From an uncultured Thermoguttaceae bacterium (lineage in GTDB: Bacteria; Planctomycetota; Planctomycetia; Pirellulales; Thermoguttaceae), in contig CALKER010000007.1 of NCBI GenBank assembly GCA_938084835.1, forward strand, positions 124,001 through 188,000: a DNA stretch of 64,000 nt, given 5' to 3'. The notes under the pieces were generated by a model. It was not told the origin of the DNA, did no database searches, and saw nothing but the letters and a program-made list of their open reading frames with translations. A program made the position numbers and the translations under genes. Shown in pieces: positions 691 through 42,690 of the stretch (position 1 is its first letter; every line of letters starts with the position of its first letter).

Positions 691-1884
691 GTGAGCCAGA
701 CGTAAGGCCGGATTTGGAAGAGTCACCCGCGCAGGCCTAGCAGCGAAGATGGCAAAGCTGGCTACACCGACAGGAATCGCTATCAGGTCACCGAAACAGA
801 GTTTTCCATCGGCAAAAAACTTTGAACCTCACTCCGCACACTCCTGCTGAACTGGTCACCGTCATTCCGGACCCTTAGGGGGCAGTGCGAAAGATCGAGC
901 CATGCCTCGGACGAAGGGGGTACTTTCATCGGGTAATCCTATTGGCGGGAAGTGACCCGTTGTTTTACGAAAGCCCTCCATTTTTTGACCGATTGCGGCT
1001 TCACCGATACTTGGACTAGTAGGGTTTGACCGTGTCGAAGTTGTGGGTCACATCACCCGGAAGAAACTTACCTTCGCCCGGGTGACTGGCCAAAATTGGG
1101 GGTAGAAGTTCTCCCGGGGCGGTGCGAGGCTCCTCGTGCGGAAGCCAATCGCGACCGACCACCGCCGAGCGAAAGTAGACCTCCACCTTTCCTGTAATCT
1201 GGACGATGCCCTTGACCGGCCCAAACCCAAGAGAGGAGCAGTCACTCCGGCGGAAATCCGCGTCTTTCTCCTGGCAAGGCCTGATCTTGGGTCGGCCACT
1301 AGCGCCGGGGAGTTTAGCGCCGGAAGTGGTTCGGGAGGTGTCGAGGCGGTACAAACTTCCCGCGAGGCAAGAGTTCAAGCCGCTGAAATACTTTCGCAAG
1401 ATCACTCCCTCACCCTCAAGATGCTGAGCGTTTGAACTGCCAGACCGGATTCCTTTGGTAGGGCGTTAAAGGCCTAGAAAAATCCACCCGATCCCGATCC
1501 GGCCTTGTTTGGGGGAAGCACTCAAATGGTAGGGACTTAGGTAAAGGGCGCATCCATCCGGCCTAAACTGGGCGGCCCACCCCCAAGCGCCATCGCTAGG
1601 AGCGACAATCCTGGTTATGTTTACTGGTGGCTTAAAGAGCTAGGCCCAAAGTAGGTCTCCGGCTTGAGCCAATCCGCCGAGGACAGTTTGAAATGGGGCA
1701 TACAATTTCATTCCCCGGACCCGGCATATATCATCAGTGCCGCTTAAGCTAAGCGAGATGTCTTAGCAAAAAAGATCCTGATTTTCGGTAGATTGGTTGT
1801 GCGGTGGGGCTAGCCGGCTCCAATTCGGCCGGTACCCCCCAATCTGATGAGTGTTTCCCTACAAAGAAACCTGCAACAGATCCT
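691..1884. other. Gene-free stretch with overlapping weak ORFs
   Basis: Between the repeat array and the deacetylase gene no frame shows a recognisable protein. Overlapping open frames at 1016-1405 (minus) and 1136-1435 (plus) cover a GC-rich patch but have no motif and no ribosome binding site, so I did not call them. The section just before 1804 also lacks a clear promoter. Confidence 0.35.
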
Positions 1885-2637
1885 ATGACGGAGCAAGAGC
1901 TTGGGCAGCAAGTAGACGTGGTGGCGGTTGGTGCCCACCCAGACGATGTGGAAATCGGATGCGGAGGGACTCTTGCCCTGCTTGCCGATCAGGGCTATAA
2001 AGTCGCCATTGTTGACCTCACGAATGGGGAACCCACGCCGGGGTGTCCGCATCCGGAGGTCCGATTGGCCGAAGCTCAGCGGGCCGCGGAAATCCTTGGG
2101 GTGTGCCTCCGACGGACGTTGTCGCTAACAAATCGGCAACTGATGGACAGTTTTGAAGCGCGCCTCGCATTAGCCCAGGAACTTCGGCGGCTGCGGCCAA
2201 CGCTTGTTCTTGGAATCGGAGCGGCCACACCAAACGCCTCGCCGGATCACCTTCAAGCTCGGGAGATCACTTCTGCTGCCGTGTTTTATTCGCGACTGTC
2301 CAAGTGGGAGGAGTATTTCGATGCCTTGCCGCCTCACCACGTAAAGGCCTACTGGCACTATTTTCTGGCTTATTCCAATTTGTCCCCGCCTGCCAAATGG
2401 CCAGTGATCGTGGATATCGGTTCCACACTTGAGCGAAAGCTTGCCGCCATTGCTGCTTACCGAAGTCAATTTTCCGGACAAAAAGCTTCTTTTCTGGAAC
2501 GGGTGCGGATCTTTAACCAACAGCAGGGCTTGGCCGCAGGCTTTCTCGCCGGAGAGGTTCTCTCCCCCACCAGACCTTTAGGAATTCAGGACCTCATGGG
2601 TCTGATTTTCGCCGATTGCCGCAGCCCTCAGCAGTGA
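1885..2637 (+). CDS. bshB1: PIG-L/LmbE deacetylase, BshB1-like
   Basis: This is a zinc-dependent N-acetylglucosaminyl deacetylase of the PIG-L/LmbE family. The closest type is BshB1, which removes the acetyl group from GlcNAc-malate in bacillithiol synthesis. The metal motif AHPDDVEIG lies at residues 17-25 and the third ligand region is SPDHLQARE. The catalytic Asp follows the motif His-Pro. The length of 250 residues fits the BshB1 group. The frame is open from a GTG at 1804, but the extra 27 residues look non-coding; I prefer the ATG at 1885, and neither start has a good ribosome binding site. It stands alone, with no bshA or bshC nearby, so the bacillithiol role rests on family resemblance. 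Confidence 0.85.
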   Translation: MTEQELGQQVDVVAVGAHPDDVEIGCGGTLALLADQGYKVAIVDLTNGEPTPGCPHPEVRLAEAQRAAEILGVCLRRTLSLTNRQLMDSFEARLALAQELRRLRPTLVLGIGAATPNASPDHLQAREITSAAVFYSRLSKWEEYFDALPPHHVKAYWHYFLAYSNLSPPAKWPVIVDIGSTLERKLAAIAAYRSQFSGQKASFLERVRIFNQQQGLAAGFLAGEVLSPTRPLGIQDLMGLIFADCRSPQQ

Positions 2638-4411
<1,774 letters not shown>

Positions 4412-4717: not shown

Positions 4718-5371
4718 ATGCGCCTAGGATTTTTCCGATTGAGGTGGTCTTTAATCCTCATGGTATTGGCGGGCATATTAACCTTGATGGCCTATCCTCT
4801 GGCCGCAAAAGCCGAGGAGCTTATTTTCCGAGATCGTTTTGAGGGTCGGCTGGACCAAGGATGGTACTGGCTTCGCGAAAACCCAGGGTTCTGGCGACTT
4901 GGCGAGAGGGGCCTCGAAATCCGCCTGGAACCGGGAGTGGCCACCACCGTCAAAAATGCCCTGGTGCGGCAAGCCCCTAACCGCGCCGAGGGAACCTATG
5001 CCATTGAAGTGACTGTCAACAACCTCTCTCCCTTGACCAATCAATACGAACAAGCTGGGATTACTTGGTACGTGGACGGAAAGCCAGTCTTCAAATTGGT
5101 CAAAGAATTAGTCGACGGGGTGGTGTGCATCATTCCGGGGAAAAAGCCGATACCGGATAGACCGGTGCGGTTAAGACTGATCGTCTCCCGCGACCGCTAT
5201 ATTGCGCAGTATCGGCCGGAAGGCGAACCGGAGTTTCTCCTTGCCGCGGAGGGCTCTTTGCCGGCTCCCTCTCAGGACGAAGTTAGCATTCAAGGTTATC
5301 ATGGCCCCACGGATGCGGAACACTGGGTCCGTTTTGAAGATTTCCGCATCCTCCGGATCGACAGTCGTTGA
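4718..5371 (+). CDS. Secreted beta-sandwich protein (DUF1349/ConA-like)
   Basis: A 217-residue exported protein of unproven function. A basic N-terminus (MRLGFFRLRW) and a hydrophobic stretch ending at AAKAEE form a signal peptide of about 31 residues. The mature part looks like the concanavalin-A-like beta sandwich of the DUF1349/GH43 C-terminal type: DRFEGRLDQGWYWLREN near the start, AGITWYVDGKPVFKLV in the middle, and a final strand pattern WVRFEDFRILRID. I infer carbohydrate binding or a structural role from the fold only. The ATG at 4718 follows GGAGG by seven bases, better than an in-frame start at 4694. It is a single gene between enolase and galE. Confidence 0.75.
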   Translation: MRLGFFRLRWSLILMVLAGILTLMAYPLAAKAEELIFRDRFEGRLDQGWYWLRENPGFWRLGERGLEIRLEPGVATTVKNALVRQAPNRAEGTYAIEVTVNNLSPLTNQYEQAGITWYVDGKPVFKLVKELVDGVVCIIPGKKPIPDRPVRLRLIVSRDRYIAQYRPEGEPEFLLAAEGSLPAPSQDEVSIQGYHGPTDAEHWVRFEDFRILRIDSR

Positions 5372-5729
5372 CGCCTTCGGGCGGGCGAAGCTTGCACGGT
5401 GGCCTTACCCGTCAGGGCAAGCTGTGCAGAAAAGCCTGTGGGATATCCTTTCCTTTTGCAAAAAGTCGGCGGCGAAGCGACCCCGGCTGACTGTAAAAAT
5501 AACCCCCTGCAAGGGAAATTCGGGCACCGCTCTCCAGCCAGCCGATCTTTTCGGTCATTTCGAGACGGCTACAGAAAGCCCAACTCGAGTGGCAGCCAGA
5601 GTGCCATTCAGAACGTTAATGCAAAAATGAATCCGGCATTTACGAACCTTAATTTCCCTGGGCGGAGGCCAGGCTTGTTCCGCTCAGACGCATGAGTAGT
5701 TTTTCCGGAAGTTTTCTTGAGGCTGACCC
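5372..5729. other. Intergenic before galE
   Basis: No gene seen. Short open frames here have no supported start. Confidence 0.3.
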
Positions 5730-6731
5730 ATGAATGTTCTTGTGGCAGGTGGAGCCGGTTACATAGGGGCCCATGCCGTGCGTGTTTTGCTTCGAGCCGG
5801 CCATAGGCCCGTGGTGATCGACAATCTCTTTCGCGGGCATCGTGCGGCAATACCCCCGGAAGTCCCCTTCTATCAGGCAGATCTTTTGGACAGAGAGGCA
5901 ATTACTACAATCCTTCGCCAGGAGGCCATCGATTGTGTTATGCACTTTGCGGCACTGGCTTATGTCGGGGAATCGATGGAAAACCCTCTTCGCTATTACG
6001 TCAACAATACGGCAGGAACGATCCGCTTGCTGGAAGCGATGACGGAGGCCGGCACCGCCCGGATGGTCTTTAGCTCCACCTGCGCCACCTATGGGGAGCC
6101 AGCCCAAGTCCCCATTACCGAAGAGACGCCGCAACATCCGATAAACCCCTACGGGCGTTCCAAGCTGTTTGTGGAGCAAATTTTGCAGGACTGTGTGCGG
6201 GCCTACGGGCATTTCGGAGTGGTGTCGCTGCGATATTTTAACGTCGCCGGCTGTGCCGAGGACGGCTCTTGTGGCGAGGATCACACGCCGGAGACCCATC
6301 TGATTCCGCGGCTTCTTCTTGCAGTTTTAGGGCGTATTGAAGCGGTAACCATATTTGGCACAGATTATCCCACGCCGGACGGCACATGCGTCCGAGACTA
6401 CATCCATGTTGATGACTTATGTGAGGCCCACGTACTGGCCATGGAAGCCTGCCGGCCCGGCCAGTTTCGTGCCTATAACCTGGGTATTGGGCGCGGCTAC
6501 TCGGTGTTAGAAGTAGTGGAAGCCGTTCGGCAGGTGACGGGCAGGGATGTGCCCATCCGCATCGGTCCTCGCCGGCCCGGGGACGCGGCCATCCTCTTTG
6601 CCGACGCCGGTAAAATTCAGCGGGAATTGGGCTGGAAACCTAAGTTCACCGCGATCGAGCCGATCGTGGAAACGGCCTGGCACTGGTTCCGGGCCAATCC
6701 CGCTGGGTATCCGAAGAACACTTCATCCTAA
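5730..6731 (+). CDS. galE: UDP-glucose 4-epimerase
   Basis: NAD-dependent epimerase of the extended short-chain dehydrogenase family, interconverting UDP-glucose and UDP-galactose for sugar use and surface polysaccharide. Visible features are the Rossmann motif GGAGYIGAH at residues 7-15, the acidic residue after strand 2 (VVIDNLFRG), the catalytic serine region FSSTCATYG and the Tyr-x3-Lys pair in NPYGRSKLFVEQ. The C-terminal substrate domain includes TPDGTCVRDYIHVDDL and the late motif LGWKPKF. At 333 residues it is of normal length. GAGG precedes the ATG by seven bases. The next gene starts 58 bases on in the same direction, so the two may be co-transcribed. Confidence 0.95.
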   Translation: MNVLVAGGAGYIGAHAVRVLLRAGHRPVVIDNLFRGHRAAIPPEVPFYQADLLDREAITTILRQEAIDCVMHFAALAYVGESMENPLRYYVNNTAGTIRLLEAMTEAGTARMVFSSTCATYGEPAQVPITEETPQHPINPYGRSKLFVEQILQDCVRAYGHFGVVSLRYFNVAGCAEDGSCGEDHTPETHLIPRLLLAVLGRIEAVTIFGTDYPTPDGTCVRDYIHVDDLCEAHVLAMEACRPGQFRAYNLGIGRGYSVLEVVEAVRQVTGRDVPIRIGPRRPGDAAILFADAGKIQRELGWKPKFTAIEPIVETAWHWFRANPAGYPKNTSS

Positions 6732-6789
6732 GTGGAGGGCGGGGCCCAATTTTCCCTAAACCAGCCGGTAGCGCAAAGGATCATCCGGG

Positions 6790-7767
6790 ATGAGTCAACT
6801 GACGGTGGCCGAGGAGCTGTTCTTGTGGGATAACGGTGTGAAACTCCGCCACTCCGGGTTGGCCGTGGACATCCCGCGTCGGCAGGTATTCGGATTTATT
6901 TCCCATGCGCATGCCGACCATATCGCCCGGCACGAGCTTGCCCTTTGTACCCCTGCCACAGCTGCCCTGTACAGATTGCGGTTGGGCAATCGCTCGGTGG
7001 TGCAAGTGCCGTTTGGTCAGCCAGTCGATTTGGAAGGAAGCCGGCTGCAACTTTTCCCGGCGGGGCACTGTTTGGGCTCGGCCATGCTGTGGGTGGAGGC
7101 CGAAGGTCAGTCCCTTCTTTACACCGGCGACTTTCGACTAGGCGAGTCGGCCACAGCCGAGCCGGCCCAGGTGCCCCAGGCTCACGTCCTGATCATGGAA
7201 AGCACCTATGGTTTGCCGCGCTACCGCATGCCCCCACGAGAGGAAGTGGTTGACAAACTTCGCCGCCGAGTTCTTTGGGCCTGCGAAAATGACTTGCTGC
7301 CTGTGATTGTGGCCTACTCCTTGGGAAAAGCCCAGGAAGTGACGGCCCTCCTCAAACCTTTGGGACTTCCACTGTTCGTGCACAAAAGTGTTTACGCTAT
7401 TCATCAGATATACGAGCAGCATGGTGTGGATTTGTGGCCTTACCACCTCGTAGACGATAACGTCCGATCGCCGGCCGTGGTGATTGCACCCCCTGGAAGC
7501 AGGTTCACCCTCCGGCATCCACAGTTGTGGAAAATCGCTGTTACCGGGTGGGCCATCGATCCCGCCACACCGTACCGGTTGGGAGTCCACGAAGCGATCC
7601 CCCTCACCGATCATGCCGATTTTGATGGACTGGTCTCTCTCGTGGAAATGGTAGCGCCCCGAAGAGTTTACTGCTTGCACGGCCCAGAGACTTTTGTGGA
7701 TCATCTCCGCAGCCGCGGATGGGATGCTAGGCCGTTAGGTCGACCCACTCAATATCGACTCTTCTAG
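6790..7767 (+). CDS. MBL-fold exonuclease, DNA-ligase-associated type
   Basis: A 325-residue metallo-beta-lactamase nuclease of the beta-CASP-like group. It most resembles the putative exonuclease found beside ATP-dependent DNA ligases in many bacteria. Metal motifs are HAHADH at about residues 39-44, AGHCLGSA, YTGDFRLG and the late TDHADFDGL. Group-typical stretches are MESTYGLPRYRMP, AYSLGKAQEV, IAPPGSRF and CLHG near the C-terminus. A role in DNA repair or RNA/DNA end trimming is inferred. Unlike the usual context there is no ligase or Lhr helicase nearby; the upstream neighbour is galE. The ATG has AAGGA about ten bases upstream. Confidence 0.85.
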   Translation: MSQLTVAEELFLWDNGVKLRHSGLAVDIPRRQVFGFISHAHADHIARHELALCTPATAALYRLRLGNRSVVQVPFGQPVDLEGSRLQLFPAGHCLGSAMLWVEAEGQSLLYTGDFRLGESATAEPAQVPQAHVLIMESTYGLPRYRMPPREEVVDKLRRRVLWACENDLLPVIVAYSLGKAQEVTALLKPLGLPLFVHKSVYAIHQIYEQHGVDLWPYHLVDDNVRSPAVVIAPPGSRFTLRHPQLWKIAVTGWAIDPATPYRLGVHEAIPLTDHADFDGLVSLVEMVAPRRVYCLHGPETFVDHLRSRGWDARPLGRPTQYRLF

Positions 7768-7996
7768 ATGGCAGCCTCAGCTTTTCGAGCCAGAGCAAGC
7801 TTGGCGGGGAAATACTTCGCCGGGCACTGTTCGCACCCGTCACTCATACCCGGGAGAAACCATTACCCTTTGGTCCCCGACAGATGATGACTTTTCGACT
7901 CACATCCGCAAAATATCCTTACGGATTGTAGCTTTTGCCGAAGTCAACACCCCTTCAGCGACGGGCCCCATTTCGTTCACAGCTGGCCGCCGAAGA

Positions 7997-32827: not shown

Positions 32828-35359
32828 CTAGAGGGAGAAAAGACCCCCAGCGCCTTGCGCTATTTCATCCACACGATGTCGACATTCCGGACAAAGCAAA
32901 AGATGCCCTAACCATCGCCAGCCACCGGACTCCTCCGGTTGAGGCACCTTACCGCACTCGCAGCATGCCAGATCCGCGGTGGCCCGCTTCTCCCAGGAAC
33001 CTTTGGCCGGCCGACAAACGATCTTTTGATCCTCACACGCTACCTCCACGGCTGAAAATGCTGTCGCCTCGCCCATGCTTAAAGCTTGTCGCAAAAGCAG
33101 AAGCAGTTTTTCTTCCCAAACCCGAGTCAATGACCACGCTCCTTTCCCATCCCGGTCCGCTTCTTCGGCAAGGCGACTTAAAACTTCGTCGTGGATGAAC
33201 ACCGGTTTCCCCATTCGCGCTTTCACTTGGCGGATCGTGCGGTTCCTTAGGCGTTCAGCAAGTTTTTCTAGGGCGTCGACTGTCAATAATTCGAATAGAA
33301 TGACCTCGTCTATAACGGAAACCAACTCGGGCACAACACGGAAGGCAAGCTCCTGCGGCTGTAGCCAGGCAGCTTCCCCGGCAACCGAGTACACCTCCCG
33401 CCATGGCTGGCTTTCCACTGTGTAAACAAAGAAAACTACCGTACCATGAAGGCTTATCAGGCAACCGGCGGAGTCGTGGACGAAGCCCTGCTGCGTCCAA
33501 TCAGCAAGAAATTTGCGGACACCCGGCGAGGCTCGTTCCACATGTTCAAAGGCCACTACCCCGGTTGGACTCCCGTGGAAGCTCCTTGCAAGCTCACTTT
33601 GTGTGGCACGATAGAAGGCTTGAGGCATTTGCCCTAAAAGGCGGACCAAGCTATGAGGATCCGTATAACCGGAAAGATCCAGAACCCTTAGGGACCTCAC
33701 TCCAGGGGTAAGGGCGGAAGCAATCACCCGAAGGGTGTGACTTTTCCCAACGCCGGGAGGACCAATGAAAAGAAACCTTGCCAGGGGAAAGGGACCAGAA
33801 GCGAAATTGCTACCGGCCAAGCGAAGTCGGCGGCAGATGGCGGCCATCGCCGACCGTTGGTTCACCACCTCCCTCAGAAGCGCCTCCTCGATGTGAAGAA
33901 GCTTTTTCTCCTCAAGCTGCGGTAGAAGGCACAAAATCTCACCCGGGCCTATCTTAACTCGCGGGCTCAACACCCCGGCAATCGATTGTGCGGTCACTAA
34001 GGGCACGGAACTTTTCGCGCCCTCACCCTGGGCAACCGCCCCATTGACCTGTGCCCGACGGCGACGGGCGCGCTCCAAGGTACAAGCCTTCTCTATAAGG
34101 GCAATCGCTTTGCCGGGCAAACCCTCCTCAGGGATTAACTTGGCGGCCAGATCCACAGCTGTAGCGCAAGCCTCTCCCGATACCCTCACACCGTACTTTT
34201 TACTCCAAATGCGTCTTCGCGAAAGGACGATCTTCCTAGTCACTCCGATGCCGAGCTCCGGCACAACGAGTAACTCGAAGGTGGCAAGCATAAACGGTGC
34301 GAGGGCATCCAACTTCTCATATTCGCCAGGTGTCACCGTCAGAAGAAGCCGGCACTTGTTATCACTCAGAACTTTGCGGAAGTGGCGGAAAAAGCCCCTC
34401 TTGCCCAAGAAAGCGGCGATAGCCAAAAGTTCGTTTCCCGCCAGGCATAGAATCGAGCGCGCTGTGGACTGGTCTTGCCTCTCTGTCCAATCTACCAGCG
34501 CGCGAGCCATCTGGGCCACTGAGGGCCTCTCCCCGGGCCGGCTCGTCCATGAGGATCCAGAGAGCGCAAGCACACCAACAGGGCCATGACCGGCTTTAGC
34601 GACCCGCTCCAATACCCGGGCCACAACGTGGAGTAACGTCCTTTTGCCCACCCCGCGCAGGCCGACCAAAAGAAGAGAACCCTCTTTCACCTCGGTCAAA
34701 AACCTAGTAAGCCGGGCCACAAGCTTTCGGCGGAATATAAGCCGTTTCGGCACTCCGAGCGAGGGCCACTTTCGAACGAATTCCACAAGGTCAACCGGCA
34801 CGGGTGCAGGGACATTTTTTTCCCCAAAAGGCCCGCGACGCTGGCGAAGCCGGGCGCGAATGCGGGAGATCAATGCCATAAACTGGGCTGCGTGTGGTTG
34901 AACGACTGCTTGAAAAACCGGGGATTCGCCTTCCCTTTTTAAAAGCTGCTGAAGTACGGCTATCAACAAATGGGAACAGGTCACCCGGGGATGGCCGAAC
35001 CGATGTGCAAGCCAAAGTGCTTGTTTGAAAGCTTGGCGGCTGCCCACGGAACGATGGATCCCCTTGGTATCCTCCCGCGACACTTTTGCTTGGGGAAAAT
35101 GCTCTCGAAGCTTATGACGTAAATCCTCGGGATCGAAGCCCACTTTCTTCAAGAGCTCCCGCACAATCCGACCTTCTTCCCGAGCTGCTTCCAACTCCAA
35201 AGCGGAAAGACCAAGGGCCTGCTCAACTGCAAGTACCGGCTCAAGTTTGGTCAACGCCGCAAGAAAATGCTCCGGCTCGATCTTAGAGGCGCCACTCCGG
35301 TTCGCCTCCTTAGCAGCCAAGAGCCAGGCTATTTGCGCCGCTATCGACAGTTGTGGCAT
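32828..35359 (-). CDS. Clp-like pseudo-AAA+ protein with C-terminal zinc ribbon
   Basis: 843 residues laid out like ClpA/ClpC: two Clp_N repeats (about 1-165), two AAA+ modules, and no ClpB middle domain. Walker A sites are GLRGVGKRT (233-241, Arg where Ser/Thr is usual) and GPPGVGKSH (533-541). The hydrolysis residues are missing. Walker B of module 1 reads ILCLAGNE. In module 2 it reads VVAFEHVERA where Clp has a D-E pair. The arginine-finger sites read MLATFELL (for ALERRF) and SVIDEVILF (for NRIDE). Sensor 2 reads GAWSLTR. A zinc ribbon ends the protein (CCEC at 799-802, CPEC at 823-826). It probably binds nucleotide without unfolding protein. It lies 34 bases after the kinase gene and is likely co-transcribed. 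Confidence 0.85.
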   Translation of the reverse strand: MPQLSIAAQIAWLLAAKEANRSGASKIEPEHFLAALTKLEPVLAVEQALGLSALELEAAREEGRIVRELLKKVGFDPEDLRHKLREHFPQAKVSREDTKGIHRSVGSRQAFKQALWLAHRFGHPRVTCSHLLIAVLQQLLKREGESPVFQAVVQPHAAQFMALISRIRARLRQRRGPFGEKNVPAPVPVDLVEFVRKWPSLGVPKRLIFRRKLVARLTRFLTEVKEGSLLLVGLRGVGKRTLLHVVARVLERVAKAGHGPVGVLALSGSSWTSRPGERPSVAQMARALVDWTERQDQSTARSILCLAGNELLAIAAFLGKRGFFRHFRKVLSDNKCRLLLTVTPGEYEKLDALAPFMLATFELLVVPELGIGVTRKIVLSRRRIWSKKYGVRVSGEACATAVDLAAKLIPEEGLPGKAIALIEKACTLERARRRRAQVNGAVAQGEGAKSSVPLVTAQSIAGVLSPRVKIGPGEILCLLPQLEEKKLLHIEEALLREVVNQRSAMAAICRRLRLAGSNFASGPFPLARFLFIGPPGVGKSHTLRVIASALTPGVRSLRVLDLSGYTDPHSLVRLLGQMPQAFYRATQSELARSFHGSPTGVVAFEHVERASPGVRKFLADWTQQGFVHDSAGCLISLHGTVVFFVYTVESQPWREVYSVAGEAAWLQPQELAFRVVPELVSVIDEVILFELLTVDALEKLAERLRNRTIRQVKARMGKPVFIHDEVLSRLAEEADRDGKGAWSLTRVWEEKLLLLLRQALSMGEATAFSAVEVACEDQKIVCRPAKGSWEKRATADLACCECGKVPQPEESGGWRWLGHLLLCPECRHRVDEIAQGAGGLFSL

Positions 35360-35393
35360 AGCCCCGACCCACCCGAGGATCGAAAAATCGTTT

Positions 35394-37568
35394 TTACCGC
35401 GAAGAATGGCTGATCAGTTCCCGACATCTTTTCACATGGGCCAATAGTTCAGAGAGTTGAGCGGCGCGGCATTGGCTTTCCGCTTCGTCCAGCTTACGGA
35501 GGGCGGCCTTCCGATCTCCGCAATACGCAAATAGGCACAGGGCCTGGTTTACCAGGCATCCGACAAGCTCCGACCGCAGCTGCATTTTCCTCGCCAGGTG
35601 ATCGGCGCGGGAAAGCTGCTCGAGCGCCTGAGGGAATTGGCACAAGTCAATGAGGAGAGCAGCCTGGTTAATAAGTGATCGCACAAGAAGCACATGGTCG
35701 CACAACTTCTCTGCGAGGAGTCGCTGCTCCTCGATACGCTCTAAAGCCTGGTTAAGAAGCCCTAGGTTCCGAAGGATCACTCCCTGGCTACCCAGGCAGG
35801 CAAGAAGTAGGGAATTATCCCCAATCTCACGAGAAAGTTTCTCACTTCGCCGAAGAAACCTCATTGCCTCTGGCAGCTTGCCAAGTTTCATCAACGCCAA
35901 GCCATTTTCCATGTAAATTCGCGCACGAAGCTGACGGTCCGGTACCCGTCGGGCCCACACACAGCTTTGGCGGAAAGCCCGACGCGCAAGTTTTTCTTTG
36001 CCCTCCGACCAATAAAGCGATGCCAGAAGACTCCAGGACATGGCGAAGTTATTCCGGTCGCGCGCCAGTCTGAAATAACGCCGTGCCTCCCGCAGGAGGT
36101 GGGCGGCCTCGTGGAAATGGCTCATCTCCGCAAGGATATGAGCTCGATCGGTCAAAGCTCTCGCAAGTCCCTGCGGATCCTTCAGCTGGCGGTAAAATTC
36201 CGCCACTTCGCTGAGCAGCTGATCAGCTTCCCGCAACCGACCGGCCGTCCCCAGGAGAATCGCCCGATTGCCCCGACATGCGGCAACGCCCGAAAGATCT
36301 TCCAGCTCGCGGAAAAGAGTCTCGGCATCGTTAAATTCTCGGTGGGCTTCGGCATAATCTCCACGGCGACTTGCGCCAATCCCTAAGCGAACACGTACCC
36401 AAGCTCGTCGCCGCCGCGCGGTGGCCGAAATTTCCACCTGCGACGGTTTGACCCGAAATTCCTCATAAGCTCTCCCACTCACTCGTCGATAAATTGAGCT
36501 CAAACGAGCCTCCGCCTCAGCAGTTGTGGGACGTCGCTCTCTCTCGCTCGCAAGACAGTCCCTCATAAGATCACACAGTTCCTTGGGCAGCTTCGGCCGC
36601 CATTGGCGGGGATCCGGGCGAGGAGCCAAGCAATGTTGATCTCGCAAGTCAAAAAGGATGTGGGTCCGAAAGGGAGCCCGACCGCAGAATATCTCGTAAA
36701 GCAGAACACCAAAGGCGTAAACATCCGATTCAGGACCGACTTTGCCTTCTTGCCTCCATTGCTCCGGTGCCATATGGGTGGGTGTACCGACGAGCACCGA
36801 TTGCACAGGCTCCCCAGAGCTTTCCCTGTGGACCCCGCCAGGCAATTCAACCCTCGGAGGGGACCAAGCAACCTTGGCCAGCCCCAGGTCGCTGATAAGC
36901 GCGCGTGGTGCTGGCTCTTTTTCCCTCAACATGAGGAGGACGTTGCTCGCCTTCAGATCCCGGTGAAGGATTCCCTGGCTATGAATGTACTCCAAAGCCC
37001 AACACACCTGAATGGCGATATCCAAGCCCTGTGGCAAGGCAAGCCCGTCGGGAAATTTCCGCAGGAACCGGGCCAAACTCCCTCCGTTACAGTACTCAAG
37101 ACAAATAGCAGGCAGATAGTCCGTGGACTCATCGTCGTGGAAATCTCGCGCTTCCACCACATGAGGATGCGCAAGTTGCATCCATGCGCGAACCTCATTA
37201 AGAAGTAACCTCTTAGCCTGCGAATCATTGGCAAATCGGACCAGGATCTCGCGACCGTTGACTTCGTATCCCCTGCATGCCGCGGGAACCTTGATGGCTA
37301 CCTGCCTATGAGTCGCAAGATCCTCCGCCAAGAAGACGACCCCGAACCCGCCATGACCCAGAGGGCGTTGAAGGCGGTAGAACCCGCCAACAATCTTTCC
37401 AGGCCGCCAAGCGGGAAGTTCCAATTCCGCACCCTTCGAGCTCTGCTCCTCGAAACCCTTCTTCGGAGGTCCCGGCGAGGGGCCGTCGTCTTCCCGACAG
37501 TCCCGGAGACTACGGCGCCACGGGGAAAGTTTCGCAAGTGATTCCGCCCACGAACGGAGGCTCCACAT
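35394..37568 (-). CDS. Ser/Thr protein kinase with TPR array
   Basis: A 724-residue Hanks-type kinase. The kinase domain (about 55-340) has the Gly loop GHGGFG (71-76), VAIK (Lys93), the catalytic loop HRDLKASN (Asp204), DLG in place of DFG (Asp227), the activation segment GTPTHMAPEQW and SDVYAFGVLLYEI, so it should be active. The C-terminal half is a run of tetratricopeptide repeats with Ala/Leu/Arg-rich helices (for example GDYAEAHREFNDAETLF and GLARALTDRAHILAEMSHF). No membrane segment is evident, so it is probably cytoplasmic. The start is the ATG at 37568, with GGAGG seven bases upstream, rather than the GTG at 37583. It is followed at once by the Clp-like gene; an ECF sigma gene lies upstream on the same strand. 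Confidence 0.93.
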   Translation of the reverse strand: MWSLRSWAESLAKLSPWRRSLRDCREDDGPSPGPPKKGFEEQSSKGAELELPAWRPGKIVGGFYRLQRPLGHGGFGVVFLAEDLATHRQVAIKVPAACRGYEVNGREILVRFANDSQAKRLLLNEVRAWMQLAHPHVVEARDFHDDESTDYLPAICLEYCNGGSLARFLRKFPDGLALPQGLDIAIQVCWALEYIHSQGILHRDLKASNVLLMLREKEPAPRALISDLGLAKVAWSPPRVELPGGVHRESSGEPVQSVLVGTPTHMAPEQWRQEGKVGPESDVYAFGVLLYEIFCGRAPFRTHILFDLRDQHCLAPRPDPRQWRPKLPKELCDLMRDCLASERERRPTTAEAEARLSSIYRRVSGRAYEEFRVKPSQVEISATARRRRAWVRVRLGIGASRRGDYAEAHREFNDAETLFRELEDLSGVAACRGNRAILLGTAGRLREADQLLSEVAEFYRQLKDPQGLARALTDRAHILAEMSHFHEAAHLLREARRYFRLARDRNNFAMSWSLLASLYWSEGKEKLARRAFRQSCVWARRVPDRQLRARIYMENGLALMKLGKLPEAMRFLRRSEKLSREIGDNSLLLACLGSQGVILRNLGLLNQALERIEEQRLLAEKLCDHVLLVRSLINQAALLIDLCQFPQALEQLSRADHLARKMQLRSELVGCLVNQALCLFAYCGDRKAALRKLDEAESQCRAAQLSELLAHVKRCRELISHSSR

Positions 37569-38238
37569 TGACCGCCCTCCCACAGGAAATTCCCCAAGGC
37601 CGATCCCACCTCGTGGAGAAGCTTCCTAGCCCTGTTGATCCGTCACGGGTCATTCCACTTATGAAATTGCCGCGATCTAAGCTGGCGGAGGCTTCTCGGA
37701 TTAGCTTATAAACCGTGAACCACGCATAATTACGTGATGCCTTTCTTTTCACAAGGACGTTCTTCCTCCTGCGTCCTACCTCCAAAAAGCTTGGCACTGC
37801 TCTTCTTGCCGCGCCGTGCCACTTTTGGCGGGAGCCCTCTAACTAGTGCCCTATTTTTCCCGGAGGCCGCACGTCCCACTTCACATAACGATCCTTTCCC
37901 ACTTTCCGTTTTTCAAAAGACAACCAGGAAAGTCAGTATCGTGAGCAGCTTGTCCGTGATTGTGCCCCGAAGTAATCCCCCAAGTAACATGTGCAACTTT
38001 CCGCTGAAAGTTATGGCAAAGTCTACCACGATCTCGGGGAGGACATTTGACAGCTACTTCCACCGGACGTTCACCAGATCAATGCTTTGTCCGCCCACCC
38101 CCTACCCAGGGCGAAAAGTAAGTTTGTGTCCCCTTTTCCGGCCCAAACTTTTCTGCTATCCTGGCCGCACCATCACCGTTACACAAATCTTGCACCGCCA
38201 AAAGATTTTCGGGAGGCCAAAGTAACCATCTTCGTTTG
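37569..38238. other. Spacer between ECF sigma and kinase genes
   Basis: No gene supported. An unsupported plus-strand open frame at 37734-38225 is poor in recognisable motifs. The length argues that the kinase pair has its own promoter rather than reading through from the sigma gene. Confidence 0.3.
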
Positions 38239-39027
38239 TCAACCACTTCTTTGGCGACGCAGAAAACCGAGAGCGTCCTCATACTCCGCAAGGCAATCCT
38301 CGCGGTTAAAAGCAAAACCTTCTATTTCTTCCTTGAGCATTCTGACAAATGCGCGCTGGGCCGTCACGCCAAAGTTGGCCACCTGCCGCGGCGTAATCCC
38401 AAAGCGATCGGCCAACTCCTTAAGAGTCGGCCGCCTGCTCCCTTCAAGGGCCGGCCCAATTTTCCGCAGCAAAAAAATTTCGAAATGCTTTTGTCGATTG
38501 CGACACGCCCATTCTTGTTGTTGCCGGTGAAGAACCCTTTGGACGAGTTCATTAATCCACACGTTGTGGAAGACCTCACAAGCCTGCTCGTCGCTCTCAG
38601 AAACTTTAAATCCCCCATCTTCCACCGCGTTTTCATTGAGGGACAATCCTTCCTCCAGAGGGATGCTACTCTTTTTCCGCGACTGTCTTTTTACGTCAAC
38701 AATATAGTTTTTGAGCGAAGTGAGCAGAAACCCCCGAAAGCGGCCCCGTTGAGGATCCGCTTTGCCAAAAGCGTCTTTTTCGATGGCCTTTGTAAAAAAG
38801 GCTTGCGTTAGATCCGCGGCATCGGCCTGTTGATAACCCAAACGCCGCAAATAGCAATACACAGGTTTCCAGTATCTTTCAATCAATTTTCCGATCACTT
38901 CCCGCCGAGCTTGGAAGTCATCGGCCTTGAGACCAGCAAGATAAGAACCTGTTTCAGGAAAGTCGGCCCGAAAGGAATCAGAATCCCCAGACCTCCCTTG
39001 GCGACGACGACGGCGAAAATGAATCAT
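38239..39027 (-). CDS. ECF-type RNA polymerase sigma factor
   Basis: A 262-residue ECF sigma factor. Region 2 includes ERYWKPVYCYLRRLGYQQADAADLTQAFF, an ECF pattern with the -10 recognition helix. Region 4 is PTLKELADRFGITPRQVANF, a helix-turn-helix, followed by AQRAFVRMLKEEI. It is longer than most ECF factors (about 190 residues) because the linker between regions 2 and 4 is extended (about 110-185) and a short tail is added. Planctomycete ECF groups with long linkers linked to Ser/Thr kinases are known, and a kinase lies 670 bases downstream. The ATG at 39027 has GGAGGT about seven bases upstream. No anti-sigma gene is seen. Confidence 0.88.
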   Translation of the reverse strand: MIHFRRRRRQGRSGDSDSFRADFPETGSYLAGLKADDFQARREVIGKLIERYWKPVYCYLRRLGYQQADAADLTQAFFTKAIEKDAFGKADPQRGRFRGFLLTSLKNYIVDVKRQSRKKSSIPLEEGLSLNENAVEDGGFKVSESDEQACEVFHNVWINELVQRVLHRQQQEWACRNRQKHFEIFLLRKIGPALEGSRRPTLKELADRFGITPRQVANFGVTAQRAFVRMLKEEIEGFAFNREDCLAEYEDALGFLRRQRSG

Positions 39028-40483
39028 GGCACTACCTCCCCGCCCACGGACCCACAAAGTTTTTGTTTACATAGGATTGAGCACCCTAAACAGGTTCAAG
39101 ACGTTTGGGAGCTGTAAATACTCTGGCCACCCCGGAGCTTCCGAATTGCTCGGCTGGGCGCTCTCCACAGAAAGTCTTGCCCTCATTTTAGACGTGCGAA
39201 CCTGCTAACCCAAAGCCCACCCCCTCGGAGAAAGTGGCACAGCGGAACTTTGCTGTCGGCTGCCCCACGATCCTTTTTTCCAGCGCATGGCCTAAGAATA
39301 GCCAGCTCAAGGCTCGTGTACTCAAACGGAGGAGCGCGAGCTTGTGGCATGGTCGCTTTTTTAAATTTAAGTGGACGTCGCGGGGCGCACTTTAGCTCTG
39401 GATACCCCAAATTCATCAACCCACGCGGGTCGCCGGCTTATTTCTTGAGGGATCAGTGGGGGATCGCCCGGAATTTCTTCACCTCGTCCCGATCTAGTAT
39501 GTTGAACTTCGACCCACGAAGCCCGACCCGATTATGTTTGAAACGAGCTTCCGCTGGCTCTAAGAAACGTTCGAAATTCCGCAGAAGTTCGCCCCGGCGG
39601 CCTAATGTCTCAGCCCGGACGAAAACTCCGGATGGCCCCTTTGAGAACGGCCTTCGCCGGTCGGATTGGCCTTCGCAGAGAAAGTTCGATTTGACTACAC
39701 GTTATGCCGGGAGAGAAATCATGACTATGTCGATTATTTTCTACCTATTTCCCGCCTAAAGTTTTTTGGTTCCTGGCTGAACATCGCTAACAATCGGCCG
39801 AAGCACAGGCAGATTTCCCGACAGTTCCTCGGAAATCACCCGGCACGCTTCGGTGTCACTGCGCCACGCTTCGCCCGTAATTTGACGGCACCGCCCAAGC
39901 CCCTGAACAACTTCCCGCCAACCGGGCGAACTTCCGACAACCACAATCGACCTCCCTGTATTGACCGCAGGCCGAGCACTCCCGGCTCCGCCAACTTCTT
40001 ACTCCCCCGATGCCGAAGCCACACACCATCCCCGCCGACAGAGTCGGCTTCCGCTTTAATCCAGGCTCGTGCAAGCGGGTGCCAGCCTTCTCAGTAGGTG
40101 GCAAGCGCCGGATGATGTGGCGCCTTTGGCTCTCCGATCTCTCAACAACTGCTGGCCCAAAGCGAGGGCTCCAGTTTCCATGAGGAGAAAATGCCGGAAT
40201 TCAGCTCGAGGATGTCATAACCATTGTCGCTTTTTCTGAGAAGCGATCGTCCGGGCGACCAACCCGACGCTGCGACTACTCGAAACCTAGCCCTTCGACC
40301 TCTTACCTTCGGGCGAAAAATGAGACCAAAGACTATGCGAGACAATGACCCAAAAGAATTAGCGCGGAGACACCCCCGCGCCGGCTGTAAAAGCCTCCCA
40401 AAGTCGCATAAAAGTGCCTGGAATCGGCCTAAGCTACCCTCGCAGGAGCCGAAGGCGGAAGAGCCGTTCCATGTAGGCCGCTT
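39028..40483. other. 1.4-kb gene-free region
   Basis: No gene, RNA or terminator that I can support. Frames such as 39250-39759 (+) and 39666-40097 (+) are Arg/Ser/Pro-rich with no motif and no ribosome binding site. Confidence 0.35.
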
Positions 40484-42312: not shown

Positions 42313-42690
42313 TTAAATTGCTTTATTTACGATATCGCTTAACGAAACCACACCAAGCAGGCGGTGCTCCCCAATCACCGGGGCGCGGGAAAGGCCCATA
42401 TTAGCCAAAAGTCGGGCTACATATTTTACGTCCAAATTGGGATTAACTACCACAAGAGGCTTGGCCATGATTTCGTGAACTTTTACCTGTGCAACGTCCA
42501 AACCCTTGGCTACGACTTTATACACGATGTCTCGCTGCGTGACGATCCCGTACGCGTCTTCTTCATTTCGACGTTCCACGATCAACGAGCGGACACCGCG
42601 GGACTTCATGAGAGCCACCGCCTCCGCCACGGTGGCATCGCCGGAAATGCTGACCACGTCGGTTGTCATGATGTCTTTGGCCTTCGGCAT
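42313..42690 (-). CDS. Tandem CBS-domain protein
   Basis: A 125-residue protein made of two CBS motifs: MTTDVVSISGDATVAEAVALM and VHEIMAKPLVVVNPNLDVKYVARLL, each followed by the usual strand-helix (RSLIVE, GIVTQRDIVYKVV; APVIGEHRLLGVVSLSDIV). Stand-alone CBS pairs sense adenine nucleotides and regulate partners. The start has AAGGAG seven bases upstream. The gene is alone, so its partner is unknown. Confidence 0.93.
   Translation of the reverse strand: MPKAKDIMTTDVVSISGDATVAEAVALMKSRGVRSLIVERRNEEDAYGIVTQRDIVYKVVAKGLDVAQVKVHEIMAKPLVVVNPNLDVKYVARLLANMGLSRAPVIGEHRLLGVVSLSDIVNKAI

Follow-up and report, generated by a model that had tools for sequence, protein, structure and literature searches.

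A Ser/Thr kinase gene paired with a gene for a ClpA-like protein poor in motor residues in an uncultured Thermoguttaceae bacterium

The stretch of DNA analyzed here (the window) is 64,000 nucleotides long and comes from an uncultured Thermoguttaceae bacterium. Analysis of open reading frames and Pfam domains showed that a gene for a TPR-bearing Ser/Thr kinase lies directly 5′ of a gene for a ClpA-shaped protein on the same strand (Table 1). The kinase frame starts with GTG at 37583, and an alternative in-frame ATG at 37568 was the start chosen in an earlier note on this DNA. The kinase domain (Pkinase, 144 bits, 5.9e-42) is followed by TPRs (TPR_12, 62 bits, 6.8e-17). The Lys, HRD, DxG and APE elements of a Hanks-type kinase are all present: K98, E129, D209 (in HRDLKxxN), D232 (in D(L)G) and APE at 272. 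Thus, the kinase keeps its catalytic residues, as the earlier note had claimed, and the spacing of 34 bases that it gave was also confirmed (35394 versus 35359, same strand). PMC11032199 examined Planctomycetota species and reports TPR or WD40 arrays in a large share of their kinases. A promoter scan found no consensus promoter, and terminator-like sites occurred at the rate of shuffled sequence.

Table 1 Features of the kinase-Clp locus and of related loci. Positions with an L prefix are those of stretches from other genomes; G002 is a second species of the same genus.
Feature	Position	Strand	Remarks and basis
CBS-domain gene, marker of the shared locus	42313..42690	-	92.8% identical in G002; upstream of the pair, same strand in both genomes
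ECF-type sigma factor gene	38239-39057	-	Upstream of the kinase gene; sigma-2.2 stretch DAAD instead of DAED (by eye)
Ser/Thr protein kinase with C-terminal TPRs	35394..37583	-	729 aa from GTG; Pfam
Gap from kinase stop to Clp start	35360..35393	-	34 bases; ORF coordinates
ClpA-like protein, predicted motor-dead (Clp_N, D1, D2, zinc ribbon)	32828..35359	-	843 aa from ATG; ORF and Pfam
D1 Walker A, degenerate	34640..34663	-	GLRGVGKR, threonine lost; GLAGTGRK in G002; motif comparison
D1 Walker B position	34430..34441	-	AGNE; Asp lost, alignment ambiguous; motif comparison
D1 arginine-finger position	34280..34285	-	RR to AT (RRF to ATF); AL in G002; motif comparison
D2 Walker A, intact	33740..33763	-	GPPGVGKS; also kept in G002; motif comparison
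D2 pore loop	33611..33622	-	GYVG to QAFY; GAKH in G002; motif comparison
D2 Walker B	33542..33547	-	DE to EH; identical change in G002; motif comparison
D2 arginine-finger position	33314..33316	-	R to V (NRxD to SVID); I in G002; motif comparison
D2 sensor-2 position	33134..33136	-	GAR to GAW; GGH in G002; motif comparison
Putative C-terminal C4 zinc ribbon	32882..32965	-	CxxC-20-CxxC, residues 799-826; sequence reading
G002 kinase gene	L040:4850-6999		Frameshift after kinase domain and first TPRs; frame reading
G002 pseudo-Clp gene	L040:7024-9522		832 aa, 34-35% identical to the window protein; directly after the kinase-TPR gene
FHA-Clp, then kinase with FGE-sulfatase domain	L107:3223-5685 and 5673-7385		Distant genus, same phylum
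FHA-Clp, then kinase with FGE-sulfatase domain	L131:3939-6212 and 6125-7888		Same distant genus as L107

The Clp-like protein (hereafter pseudo-Clp) has a Clp_N domain and two AAA+ modules (D1 and D2), which is the architecture of Hsp100/Clp proteins of the ClpA/ClpC type. The Pfam scores for Clp_N (36 bits), AAA_2 (41 bits) and AAA_lid_9 (30 bits) were all above the Pfam cut-offs; an FHA domain was not found by Pfam, and a middle domain is absent, as in ClpA. In the predicted structure, Clp structures were matched over residues 189-787, and the best matches were ClpA/ClpC. Overall, this model is of moderate confidence (pLDDT 71.8, pTM 0.54), and the ribbon is modelled with low confidence. The earlier note had reported the gain of a C4 zinc ribbon, and the CxxC-20-CxxC pattern at the C-terminus agrees with this. 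Its cysteines are kept in G002, and a Pfam search gave no significant match to it, so by that search the ribbon is not a known Pfam domain. Ordinary ClpC and ClpB are also encoded in the genome of the window. The window protein is only about 22% identical to them, and the two pseudo-Clp copies (window and G002) are 22-26% identical to the ClpC and ClpB of their own genomes.

We compared motifs of the two pseudo-Clps with those of six ordinary Clps, namely two database proteins and the ClpC and ClpB of G000 (the genome of the window) and of G001 (a further genome of the genus). Both modules of these six have DE, and RR, KYRG or a near form, GYVG, the sensor-1 Asn, NRxD and GAR are also kept. 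In contrast, besides the changes in Table 1, the window protein has lost the KYRG-type pore loop of D1 and the sensor-1 Asn, so that it has neither of the aromatic pore loops. An IGF-type tripeptide is absent in both copies and the loop region, which we take to be the site of ClpP-docking tripeptides, is shortened. Within the altered D2 Walker B (EHVE), E605, H606 and E608 are identical in both copies. The earlier note had stated that Walker B acids and arginine fingers are lost in both modules. This is correct for D2, for the D1 fingers and for the Asp of the D1 Walker B. The fate of the D1 Walker B Glu is uncertain because two alignments are possible: an ungapped alignment places AG at the position, and a 2-residue insert places NE there (Glu kept, Asp lost). 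Further losses, not listed in that note, are those of sensors 1 and 2, of the pore loops in both modules and of the ClpP-docking loop. The pairing of a kinase with active-site residues and a Clp-like protein poor in motor residues is therefore a real observation.

The genus was represented by three genomes, G000, G001 and G002. The pseudo-Clp gene is present in two of them (G000 and G002) and was not found in G001. In G002, the gene starts 24-33 bases past the preceding frame, with GTG or ATG, and the kinase encoded by that frame aligns with the same catalytic residues as the window kinase. The G002 pseudo-Clp has in common with the window protein the D2 Walker A, the EH change, the remaining losses and the ribbon cysteines. 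Because the same losses are seen in a relative of 35% identity, they are not due to chance. Moreover, both the adjacency and the residue losses recur in a second species, and therefore the window gene is not a single decayed gene. It should be mentioned that the frameshift in the G002 kinase gene may be either a sequencing error or real decay or truncation.

Wider searches gave no further orthologue. In the family (119 genomes, best 8 candidates per genome scored), orthologue-level matches were found only in two genomes. No further orthologue-level match was found in the order (396 genomes) or, by profile search, in the phylum (392 genomes), the best 2 candidates per genome being scored in each case; remote pseudo-Clps ranked below ClpB/ClpC could escape the scoring of the best 2 or best 8 candidates. 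Searches of 5.8 billion proteins returned the window protein alone or together with other AAA+ proteins with partial matches. This absence is weak evidence because the G002 copy was not returned either. A scan of genome contigs yielded a single Vibrio locus, with 25% identity to part of the protein. Thus, the recurrence in related genomes by which the earlier note wished its idea to be judged was seen in another genome of the same genus, and it extends to two of the three genus genomes and two of the 119 family genomes. In the same order, two Clp-like proteins with intact Walker A and B in D2 have a degenerate-looking D1, one with VEN as Walker B (L041:3244-5172, minus strand) and the other with ADRGVGPQ as Walker A (L042:1725-3608, minus strand); judging from sequence, these may be cases of partial motor loss in other Clp relatives.

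Both genomes have the CBS-domain gene upstream of the pair and on its strand, at a distance of about 540 bases in G002 and 4.7 kb in G000. In G000, a gene for a pectate-lyase-like beta-helix protein and the sigma factor gene lie between them. The remaining surroundings are rearranged between the two genomes. In G001, the CBS gene is followed, as the next large frame, by a Sir2-family gene, which is on the opposite strand. The upstream CBS gene in both genomes suggests one ancestral locus, and such a locus, with gain or loss of the pair, probably fits best. A horizontally mobile module is not favoured because the CBS gene precedes the pair, in unchanged orientation, in G000 as well as in G002.

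We then consider how fast the protein changes. Over 811 aligned codons, the identity between the window and G002 pseudo-Clp genes was 0.50, 0.56 and 0.30 at codon positions 1, 2 and 3. Therefore, the protein is under constraint and silent sites are saturated. From the fetched pieces, 23 reciprocal best hits between G000 and G002 were obtained, and 17 orthologue pairs were left after 6 antisense or overlapping frames were dropped. The pseudo-Clp has the lowest identity of the 17 pairs and the kinase is 54% identical; the other 15 pairs range from 47 to 96% (median 82%). ClpC and ClpB are 96% and 92% identical between the two species. By domain, the identity of the pseudo-Clps was 38% in Clp_N, 33% in D1, 38% in the large part of D2, 34% in the D2 lid and 48% in the zinc ribbon. 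The fast divergence suggests a fast-changing client.

The phylum profile search also surfaced ClpA-like proteins without a middle domain. Three of them (in G572, G559 and G585, the latter two of one genus) possess an N-terminal FHA domain by Pfam; by reading, the Walker motifs of both modules are intact, as are the pore loops and the Arg residues. FHA domains bind phosphothreonine. In two of these genomes, G559 and G585, the FHA-Clp gene is directly followed on the same strand by a gene for a Ser/Thr kinase that carries an FGE-sulfatase domain. The earlier note had regarded kinase-adjacent homologues with normal Walker B residues as evidence against its idea. Such Clps do exist as these distant FHA-Clps of another genus, and none is orthologous to the pseudo-Clp. 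In 9 of the 11 genomes matched (best 2 candidates each), G572 included, a pattern search found no kinase motif directly beside the Clp gene in the stretches fetched; in G503, a kinase motif is about 5 kb from the Clp gene. As a control, 20 other Clp-type loci were sampled from 97 other genomes of the order with a match (stretches of 5.5-9.5 kb, Clp positions from the order search), and one of the 20 had a kinase motif, on the opposite strand. In a tree, the pseudo-Clps, two FHA-Clps and three short ClpA-like proteins form one set of seven rows (95/99), and the pseudo-Clps group with FHA-Clps alone at 87/78. This grouping is only a lead because the branches are long.

Two further loci were noted in these stretches. 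The FHA domain is present in L105 as well as in L107 and L131; in L105 (5407-8001, minus strand), two FHA-like stretches precede an intact double AAA+ core in an open frame, and a kinase motif was not found within the stretches fetched. In L119, neighbouring genes for Clp/ClpX-like AAA+ proteins (1805-3004 and 2979-3962), of which one has a degenerate Walker A (GGQGTGRA) and the other is intact, are followed by a kinase-like frame (5195-6070; Pkinase, 36 bits) without a clear HRD motif.

We propose, with a probability of about 0.4, that the pair forms a scaffold or trap under control of the kinase: the Clp protein would hold ATP and would grip clients but not unfold them. The TPRs of the kinase would sense or recruit, and the kinase would phosphorylate the Clp protein or its client. 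With nucleotide in D2, the Clp protein may stay folded or oligomeric. Its Clp_N domain and zinc ribbon may bind clients that are not threaded, and phosphorylation would cause the clients to be released or handed on. In favour of this proposal, the kinase gene adjoins the Clp gene on the same strand in G000 as well as in G002, the kinase residues are kept, and the losses of hydrolysis, pore and ClpP-docking elements are common to both copies while the D2 Walker A, Clp_N and the ribbon cysteines are conserved. The identities by codon position show constraint on the Clp protein, and its predicted structure matches Clp structures. The FHA-Clps with kinases in G559 and G585 provide a second kinase-Clp link. 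In the control, one in 20 loci had a kinase motif, on the opposite strand. Against it, the pair is confined to two of the three genomes of one genus and probably reflects one ancestral event, the G002 kinase frame is broken, the FHA-Clp grouping is weak, D2 (EHVE) might retain some ATPase activity and the confidence of the structural model is moderate. The FHA-Clp link itself is opposed by the lack of FHA in the pseudo-Clp and by G572 and the eight other genomes without an adjacent kinase motif. A narrower form of the proposal is possible rather than probable. In this form, a bacterial Hsp100 would have turned into a signalling protein: under a Ser/Thr kinase, a motorless, ATP-holding Clp would use Clp_N and the zinc ribbon to capture clients, which phosphorylation would set free. 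This protein-capture switch would have arisen from a dead unfoldase, and the motor-active FHA-Clp/kinase pairs would be its distant relatives. The interpretation of the earlier note is thus partly supported.

A subunit without an Arg finger would, by the general principle of AAA+ rings, stall its neighbour. The pseudo-Clp might therefore join housekeeping ClpC or ClpB rings and slow or retarget them under control of the kinase: the Clp fold is retained and both ordinary proteins are present in the same genome. However, its identity to them is only about 22%, a middle domain is absent, and its fast divergence, compared with 96% for ClpC between the species, is not that of a subunit with a fixed interface. 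We consider this reading rather unlikely. It is improbable that D2 is a slow or altered motor that still hydrolyzes ATP through the rearranged Walker B (EHVE). The intact D2 Walker A and the three residues common to both copies would fit such a motor, but in both copies the pore tyrosine and both sensors are lost along with the Arg finger. If the pair were an anti-phage or other conflict system, its sparse distribution (two of three genus genomes) and the fast divergence (lowest identity among the 17 pairs) would be accounted for. According to the part of PMC8195603 used here, inactive NTPases are predicted sensors in conflict systems and one Death-like domain is fused to a Clp-like ATPase; these sensors are a possible parallel to the pseudo-Clp. 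However, the PADLOC matches listed for the pair are confined to the kinase domain or the AAA+ core, the kinase defence systems MADS6 and PD-T4-6 gave no full-length family match (kinase domain only among the matches listed), and the shared locus argues against recent transfer. This explanation, too, has little chance of being correct.

It is very unlikely that the kinase mainly serves the upstream ECF sigma factor and that the Clp-like protein gates this factor. The sigma gene is on the same strand, and PMC8999054 lists regulation by phosphorylation for several ECF groups that include planctomycete members, but about 655 bases separate the sigma and kinase genes, and a sigma-like frame of that size was not seen by eye beside the G002 pair. 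That the Clp-like gene is a decaying pseudogene, as its degenerate motor motifs and the broken G002 kinase frame might indicate, is hardly credible, and we rejected it on the two full-length frames, their 35% identity and the constraint at codon positions 1 and 2.

If the scaffold or trap proposal is true, the Clp fold can be retained for binding alone, under phosphorylation control. Taken with the FHA-Clp/kinase pairs, the window pair suggests that Ser/Thr kinases and Clp machines are linked in this phylum. Many enzyme families include known pseudoenzymes. The earlier note knew of no described system of this make-up, and a kinase-paired, selected, motor-dead Hsp100 was likewise not found among the matches listed from open-licence literature.

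Among known systems, ClpV is a Clp-family member linked to the PpkA-Fha threonine phosphorylation pathway of type VI secretion. This pathway resembles the pair in that a kinase, a phosphothreonine reader and a Clp-family ATPase belong to one system (part of PMC3953482, for PpkA and Fha). It differs because the window pair lacks FHA and its Clp is motor-dead. We rejected type VI secretion: the AAA_2 matches in the 92.7%-complete genome of the window were ClpC, ClpB, the pseudo-Clp and shorter frames, with no ClpV-type match and no extra frame of ClpV size, and ClpV rows branch apart from the pseudo-Clps in the tree. In other genomes of the family (L112, L114 and L115), ClpV-like proteins, so labelled by eye and forming their own tree clade, are preceded by TssG-like frames and may belong to type VI systems. 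The FtsHi pseudo-proteases of chloroplasts are AAA+ protease homologues retained after loss of catalysis, as is proposed for the pseudo-Clp; however, they belong to another AAA+ family, it is the protease site that was lost, and the part of PMC8197885 used here names no kinase partner. The FHA-Clps of G559 and G585 share with the window protein a double AAA+, ClpA-like form without a middle domain and an adjoining Ser/Thr kinase on the same strand, whereas they have an intact motor, FHA instead of Clp_N, the Clp gene first and a kinase with an FGE-sulfatase domain in place of TPRs. The closest likeness in structure is to ClpA/ClpC, which have the same order of Clp_N, D1 and D2 and the same fold. 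In contrast to these, the window protein has lost the elements for hydrolysis, the pore loops and ClpP docking, and has gained a C-terminal zinc ribbon.
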